This document shows, piece after piece, positions 18,288-21,107 of a stretch of 21,135 bases of DNA. The stretch's first letter is position 1, and each line of letters starts with the position of its first letter. Source of the DNA: a virus. A program made the position numbers and the translations under genes. The notes below the pieces were generated by a model. The model was not told the origin of the DNA. It ran no database searches and saw only the letters and a program-made list of their open reading frames with translations. Location of the stretch: the IMG/VR virus record IMGVR_UViG_3300025617_000141, positions 1 to 21,135 of that record; one strand, given 5' to 3'.

Positions 18288-18315
18288 TTGACAACTGTGT
18301 AACTTTCTGTATAAT
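18288..18315 (+). promoter_or_regulatory. Consensus sigma70-like promoter
   Basis: TTGACA (18288-18293), 16-base spacer, TATAAT (18310-18315), both hexamers perfect. A T-rich tract (18271-18284) upstream could act as an UP element. Start predicted near 18322, 28 bases before the ATG at 18350. Confidence 0.9.
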
Positions 18316-20441: not shown

Positions 20442-20617
20442 TGTATTGGGTTGAGATTGATTTTAGTAACGGTAAGACATTACGCAAAGAAAGTGAACTG
20501 CTGAATGATACCTACCAAGTGTTCTGTAGGTATAACCAAAAGACACGCCGCAATCTGGTGGTAAAAGAAATCCGAGCAGGTTGTGGCAATAATGAAACAA
20601 TGGTATTGACAAAGTAA
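20441..20617 (+). CDS. Small protein, 58 residues
   Basis: MYWVEIDFSNGKTLRKESEL then QVFCRYNQKTRRNLVVKEI and a short tail. It looks like a compact beta-rich basic protein. The ATG shares a base with the previous TAA. Its last codons contain the -35 of the tRNA promoter, so the operon end and tRNA start are interlocked. No recognised family. Confidence 0.65.
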   Translation: MYWVEIDFSNGKTLRKESELLNDTYQVFCRYNQKTRRNLVVKEIRAGCGNNETMVLTK

Positions 20618-20634
20618 TAACCTTATCGTATAAT
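20606..20634 (+). promoter_or_regulatory. Consensus sigma70-like promoter of the tRNA/ncRNA unit
   Basis: TTGACA (20606-20611), 17-base spacer, TATAAT (20629-20634): both hexamers and spacing are perfect. Start predicted near 20641, about 70 bases before tRNA-Asn. No convincing ORF follows, so it is probably dedicated to stable RNAs. Confidence 0.9.
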
Positions 20635-20701
20635 ACCACTATAGTTTTTCATGATGTTTCTCCATTATGAATATCCTGAGTAAGATATCAAACTGCTCAC
20701 T

Positions 20702-20799
20702 TAGAATACTTTGCTGGCGTGTAGTTCAGTTGGTAGAACGGTGGACTGTTAATCCATATGTCATAGGTTCGATCCCTATCACGCCAGCAAAGTGTTTTA
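20702..20799 (+). repeat. 13-bp helix extending the tRNA-Asn acceptor stem
   Basis: Bases 20702-20714 pair with 20787-20799 without interruption (11 Watson-Crick and 2 G-U pairs, including the discriminator G). This directly continues the 7-bp acceptor stem into a 20-bp helix. Possibly a processing or protection structure for the precursor. Confidence 0.7.
20715..20787 (+). tRNA. tRNA-Asn(GUU)
   Basis: Complete cloverleaf: acceptor TGGCGTG/CACGCCA, anticodon loop CTGTTAA with GTT, T-arm ATAGG-TTCGATC-CCTAT and discriminator G. The 3' end is followed by CAA, not CCA, so CCA must be added by the host enzyme. Decodes AAC/AAU. Confidence 0.95.
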
Positions 20800-20810
20800 C
20801 ACTACCGAGT

Positions 20811-20997
20811 TCGCTCTCTGCAGGAGCGATAGGAACGTGACCGAATGCCTGTCGCAGATGGCGGGTAAGGTAGACTCAAAGGGATAGCGTCCACACCCTT
20901 AGCGGGGTTGCGAGTTGTTGGGGGTCTATGTAGAAAGGTACATCTGATCGTACCCCCTTGGTGGTTACCCTAATCCACCCGTTCCGCTTTTATTTTT
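20811..20997 (+). ncRNA. Candidate structured RNA between two tRNAs
   Basis: No convincing ORF. Bases 20811-20816/20824-20829 form a 6-bp 5' hairpin. A 6-bp closing helix GGAACG (20832-20837)/CGTTCC (20980-20985) encloses several further elements. These are a hairpin at about 20840-20866; GACTC/GAGTT (20873-20877/20912-20916) around AAGGG/CCCTT (20879-20883/20896-20900); GGGGGT/ACCCCC (20920-20925/20952-20957) with an inner ATGTA/TACAT; and GGTGG/CCACC (20960-20964/20975-20979). A T-rich stretch (20988-20997) follows. The region is GC-richer than its surroundings. It lies in the same probable transcript as both tRNAs. I do not recognise an Rfam family. Confidence 0.6.
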
Positions 20998-21030
20998 GGA
21001 ATGACTGCGCCACAAAGACAGTCCCATTTA

Positions 21031-21107
21031 CGGTGTGTAGGTCAGTCTGGTAGACCACTCGCTTTGGGTGCGAGATGTCGGTGGTTCAAATCCATCCATG
21101 CCGACCA
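21031..21107 (+). tRNA. tRNA-Pro(UGG)
   Basis: Acceptor CGGTGTG/CATGCCG, D-stem GGTC/GACC, anticodon arm CTCGC-TTTGGGT-GCGAG with TGG, T-arm GGTGG-TTCAAAT-CCATC (one G-U). Discriminator A and an encoded CCA. CCA is a common Pro codon in this window, consistent with a translational benefit. Confidence 0.93.

Follow-up and report, generated by a model that had tools for sequence, protein, structure and literature searches.

The RNA closest to the one analysed here is manA, described by Weinberg et al. in 2010 and since then an unexplained riboswitch candidate, with a published context in the 5' UTR of metabolic genes and a pseudoknot that carries a question mark in the figure legend (PMC2864571). 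The corresponding Rfam family, RF01745, was revised in Rfam 14.3 (PMC7779021). Other phage RNAs are found in the neighbourhood of tRNA genes: RNAC and RNAD of T4 are genuine late RNAs without a known function (PMC9697503), and GOLLD and ROOL are phage RNAs, likewise of unknown function, that lie near tRNA islands (PMC12286853).

Our analyses concern a stretch of 21,135 nucleotides (hereafter the window), representing 21 kb of a T4-like phage that encodes gp32- and gp59-like proteins, PhoH and a 2OG-Fe(II) oxygenase. Near its end a tRNA array is seen up to the point where the window stops, 28 bases past tRNA-Pro, and the sequence between tRNA-Asn and tRNA-Pro had been proposed in an earlier note to be a multibranched RNA without a plausible gene, flanked by tRNAs and preceded by a perfect sigma70 promoter. 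These claims hold: 20789-20998 contains no ORF of at least 40 aa, and the one longer ORF (20667-20840) crosses tRNA-Asn; both tRNAs are recovered by ARAGORN, and shuffling gives a chance expectation of 0.02 exact promoter matches per whole window. A second perfect promoter-like site, TTGACA-N16-TATAAT, lies at 18288-18315 on the + strand. The features are given below; pairing and covariation refer to an alignment of 28 distinct window-like relatives, and R1 is a covariance model built from these sequences.

20606-20634, + strand: consensus sigma70 promoter TTGACA-N17-TATAAT, upstream of tRNA-Asn, the manA variant and tRNA-Pro
20715-20788, + strand: tRNA-Asn (GTT), from ARAGORN and Rfam
20809-20990, + strand: manA-variant RNA, whole conserved element, as judged from the RF01745 match, model R1 and covariation
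20811-20816 with 20824-20829, + strand: P1 hairpin; double changes in 6/6 pairs, 91.7% of cells paired
20832-20837 with 20980-20985, + strand: P0, long-range closing helix (GGAACG and CGTTCC); 100% paired, 4/6 pairs compensatory
20838-20872, + strand: conserved core GUGACCGAAU ... GGGUAAGGUA around P2; columns nearly invariant
20848-20853 with 20860-20865, + strand: P2; 100% paired
20855-20859, + strand: pseudoknot 5' strand CAGAU in the P2 loop, from the alignment of relatives and a cross-subtype test
20873-20916, + strand: P3 multibranch arm, from the RF01745 alignment and covariation
20873-20877 with 20912-20916, + strand: P3 stem
20882-20884 with 20890-20892, + strand: P3a
20896-20898 with 20905-20907, + strand: P3b
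20920-20957, + strand: P4 arm (20920-20925 with 20952-20957), containing the invariant GAAAGGUAC; 100% paired, 5/6 pairs compensatory
20942-20946, + strand: pseudoknot 3' strand AUCUG, 3' side of the P4 arm; 100% paired, 3/5 pairs compensatory
20960-20979, + strand: P5 hairpin GGUGG/CCACC; 100% paired, 3/5 pairs compensatory
20988-20997, + strand: U-rich tail UUUUAUUUUU; comparable tails behind most relatives
20998-21025, + strand: spacer hairpin GGAAUGACUGCGCC..AAAGACAGUCCC, recurring 4-7 nt behind tRNAs elsewhere
21031-21107, + strand: tRNA-Pro (TGG), from ARAGORN and Rfam

The structure could not be called from one sequence, since the folding energy of the single sequence was not significant (z = -0.92, with 40 of 200 shuffles equally good), which is the one point in favour of a chance fold in a spacer. 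The comparative data settle the question and refute this reading, to which we attach a negligible probability: over 45 pairs in the 28 relatives, 98.5% of cells are paired and 30 pairs have changed on both sides, as against 3-7 double-change pairs and 42-58% paired cells in controls in which the structure was slid by 1-3 columns. These relatives are metagenomic and mutually related, so that counts over them do not represent independent events. Most of the same helices were recovered by RNAalifold without a given structure, and the P1 stem is highly variable in sequence. The interval 20811-20989 is thus a real structured RNA, and the architecture anticipated by the earlier note is borne out: its 6-bp long-range helix is exact to the base and paired in all relatives, its other helices and its T-rich tail are present, and covariation is found in the homologues.

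The pairing between the P2 loop and the 3' side of P4 is kept in 28/28 relatives by strands that include CUGAU/AUCAG, CAGAU/AUCUG, CUCAU/AUGAG, CACAU/AUGUG, CUGAA/UUCAG and CCGAA/UUCGG. Across diverse subtypes, matched P2 loops and P4 arms gave a mean of 9.6 versus 7.9 for mismatched ones, a difference equalled in none of 20000 permutations. We equate this pseudoknot by its place with the queried pseudoknot of manA. Two other pairings were considered: a second helix inside P4 in the minimum-energy fold (AUGUA/UACAU) was dropped as it was not kept by the relatives, and an alternative pairing, in which GUUC in the 5' flank joins GAAC from the closing helix, is 93.8% paired but weakly supported and absent from several relatives, and therefore no switch is claimed.

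At Rfam gathering level, cmscan reported tRNAs only. Under lax settings, 20811-20989 matched RF01745 with 45.7 bits (E 1.3e-10) over model positions 1-192 of 192; as this lies below the gathering score of 55.2 bits, routine annotation misses the RNA. Four other loci among the relatives, which come from a pattern search of IMG/VR, score 43-46 bits against the same model, several intermediate subtypes 62-71 bits and cyanophage manA copies 110-176 bits. In the reciprocal direction, R1 detects cyanophage manA RNAs above gathering score with E-values of 2.5e-13 to 4e-4, which are rough for this model of 28 window-like sequences; the 211.5 bits that it assigns to the window RNA follow by construction, this being a training sequence. 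The closing helix, P1, P2, P4, P5 and the conserved core of manA are all present in the window RNA, and the manA-type pseudoknot in the subtype. The third hairpin of the P3 multibranch (ACCA) is absent, with 18 model positions deleted in the cmscan alignment.

On these comparisons of sequence and predicted structure, we consider the window RNA to be homologous to manA, given the full-length match, the reciprocal detection by R1 and the intermediate subtypes, and we classify it as a divergent variant rather than a typical member because its score stays below the gathering level and the third hairpin is absent. The statement in the earlier note that it matches no known family is accordingly corrected. 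The same sub-threshold score and missing hairpin could be taken to indicate an independent RNA family that merely resembles manA, but this is very improbable and already disfavoured by the full-length alignment, the reciprocal detection, the intermediate subtypes and the common pseudoknot. A family search covering the record of the window and four relatives gave no candidate, which we ascribe to its filtering, since cmscan does detect the match. A nucleotide search of isolated phages returned no relative of the RNA itself, and a scan of bacterial genome contigs with a stricter core pattern gave one weak copy only (L082, 31.5 bits). This manA match, at L082:340-535, lies on a contig of a candidate division WOR-3 MAG and may be phage DNA.

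The genomic position of the relatives was assessed with ARAGORN and a crude ORF rule, which define all contexts given here. In 21 of the 28 distinct relatives, the RNA begins 1-4 nt behind the 3' end of a tRNA (random placement in the same loci gives 0.05), the distance to the first model position being exactly 2 nt in most cases, and the upstream tRNA is of five identities (Cys, Asn, Arg, Pro and Thr). The window departs from this spacing, with 20 nt instead of 2 between tRNA-Asn and the RNA. Promoters with at least 11/12 matches upstream of relatives number 17 on the same strand and 0 on the opposite one; in two relatives (L043 and L077) an 11/12 promoter stands some 70 nt upstream of the RNA, no tRNA is found in between or nearby, and a GC hairpin with UUUU stands behind the RNA. 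Linkage to tRNAs extends to cyanophages, as the tRNA-Gly of S-SSM7 begins where manA ends, and manA begins about 1 nt behind tRNA-Gly in three further loci (L023, L027 and L028). At L035:185-366 (- strand), a tRNA-Pro-like sequence contributes its 5' part in place of the P1 hairpin, with the rest of the copy intact, representing either a tRNA/RNA recombination or an assembly join. Two phage contigs carrying this RNA also carry a permuted tmRNA, at L005:6932-7128 (RF04321, 51.6 bits, cut-off 47) and at L046:2865-3272 (reported by ARAGORN as tmRNA*).

The downstream side is mixed, and the published context of manA is not found at this locus, which has tRNAs on both sides. A tRNA (Trp, Met, Gly, Asn, Ser or Pro) follows within 50 nt in 9/28 relatives, and ORFs follow within 40 nt in 11, these ORFs showing about seven unrelated beginnings. 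An ORF with a ribosome-binding-like site lies within some 60 nt downstream in roughly half of the relatives, in a leader-like arrangement. Cyanophage manA copies lie within a few tens of bases downstream of gp23, PstS, ferredoxin or unnamed genes. It is against this background that the proposal of 2010, a cis-regulatory leader (riboswitch candidate) that would regulate the gene behind it upon sensing a metabolite, has to be weighed. It is backed by the Cis-reg label of the publication and of Rfam (PMC2864571), by cyanophage copies that stand before talC and by the many relatives with an ORF 15-60 nt downstream. We nevertheless find it unlikely for this RNA, as the subtype has no constant downstream gene and in 9/28 relatives a tRNA comes first; in two loci (L008 and P-SSM7/L086) an intrinsic terminator directly behind manA starts after the 3' strand of P0, without overlap or competition with the closing helix; and in three relatives (L019, L030 and L045) the T4 late promoter sequence, TATAAATA, stands between the RNA and the ORF. 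Furthermore, no ligand or function of manA is reported in the literature searched, and the published label fits poorly.

Our comparisons demonstrate the structure, the homology to manA and the linkage to tRNAs across the relatives. That the RNA so regularly stands right after tRNAs suggests that it is produced along with them as a free-standing RNA and is not a switch for the next gene: the fixed side is the preceding tRNA and not the following gene, as expected for an RNA cut from a tRNA precursor. We therefore favour, with a probability of roughly 0.6, a stable and probably trans-acting phage RNA, a divergent manA subtype, that is cut from a tRNA transcript. The sigma70 RNA polymerase of the host would transcribe tRNA-Asn, the RNA and tRNA-Pro as a single precursor, from which tRNA-processing nucleases would cut away the tRNAs, freeing a compact RNA about 180 nt long, presumably locked by its long-range helix and pseudoknot. 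The stable product would then act in trans, its invariant single-stranded core (GUGAC-GAAU / UAAGGU / GAAAGGUAC) most likely serving to bind a protein or ribonucleoprotein of the host or the phage. Counting against this reading are the 20-nt gap behind tRNA-Asn in the window and the leader-like ORFs downstream of about half of the relatives, and the constant spacing behind different tRNAs could have arisen from recombination between tRNA genes.

A constant upstream junction with a changing downstream partner would also be compatible with action in cis on RNA polymerase or RNA decay, either as an antiterminator for untranslated tRNA arrays, like put of HK022, or as a barrier shielding the preceding RNA at its 3' end. 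Untranslated arrays require protection against early termination, and some copies directly precede terminators. Yet the RNA often stands at the end of an array or operon, with little behind it, a modification of the polymerase needs no fixed 2-nt junction behind a CCA end, and the conserved core is more elaborate than a decay barrier requires; we regard such roles as improbable, and retain the trans-acting RNA released from a tRNA precursor as the preferred explanation.

The spacer that follows contains a second conserved element. The hairpin GGAAUGACUGCGCC..AAAGACAGUCCC is found at 20998-21025 of the window, at L046:591-618 and L017:8502-8529, in L094, L100 and L110 and in about 20 further loci; in many T4-like contigs its upstream neighbour is a tRNA or, immediately adjacent, manA, and the next tRNA starts 3-8 nt farther on. 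Copies without tRNAs exist as well, ahead of another conserved stretch, AGAATAGRCAYTCAGGGTTGCGTTCAGTGTGG, for which no Rfam match was found. The hairpin is possibly a processing or punctuation element.

For manA, a subtype that is locked behind tRNAs and has no constant following gene argues that looking for a ligand and a regulated gene may be the wrong approach, and it provides an alternative that can be tested, a trans-acting phage RNA released by tRNA processing. The broader proposal, that manA is a phage-borne, trans-acting stable RNA and not a riboswitch family, with a tRNA-linked subtype released by tRNA processing and acting during infection on a target of host or phage origin, is more tentative, and we place it somewhat short of even odds. 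The Rfam threshold, moreover, hides a manA subtype with strong covariation of its own.

Among the known systems, GOLLD and ROOL share with this RNA their occurrence in phages near tRNA islands; they are far larger and of other structures, and their Rfam models gave no match to the window RNA (for GOLLD, none up to E 10). The RNAs rnaC and rnaD likewise belong to a T4-like phage and follow a tRNA gene directly, in the case of rnaD at 1 nt from tRNA-Arg. They measure 119 and 139 nt and match neither R1 nor manA, for which they were rejected as homologues, and no manA match was found in the T4 tRNA cluster. From the comparison with T4 RNAs C/D and GOLLD drawn in the earlier note, the likeness in position to the T4 RNAs stands. 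The family to which the window RNA is related is manA (RF01745), with which it shares phage hosts, the order of P1, closing helix, core with P2, multibranch P3, P4 with its pseudoknot to the P2 loop, and P5, and the conserved GUGACYGAAU and GGUAAGGU. It differs from that family in its score (45.7 against a gathering level of 55.2 bits), in the absence of the third P3 hairpin (ACCA), and in a place set by the tRNA upstream rather than by a metabolic gene downstream.
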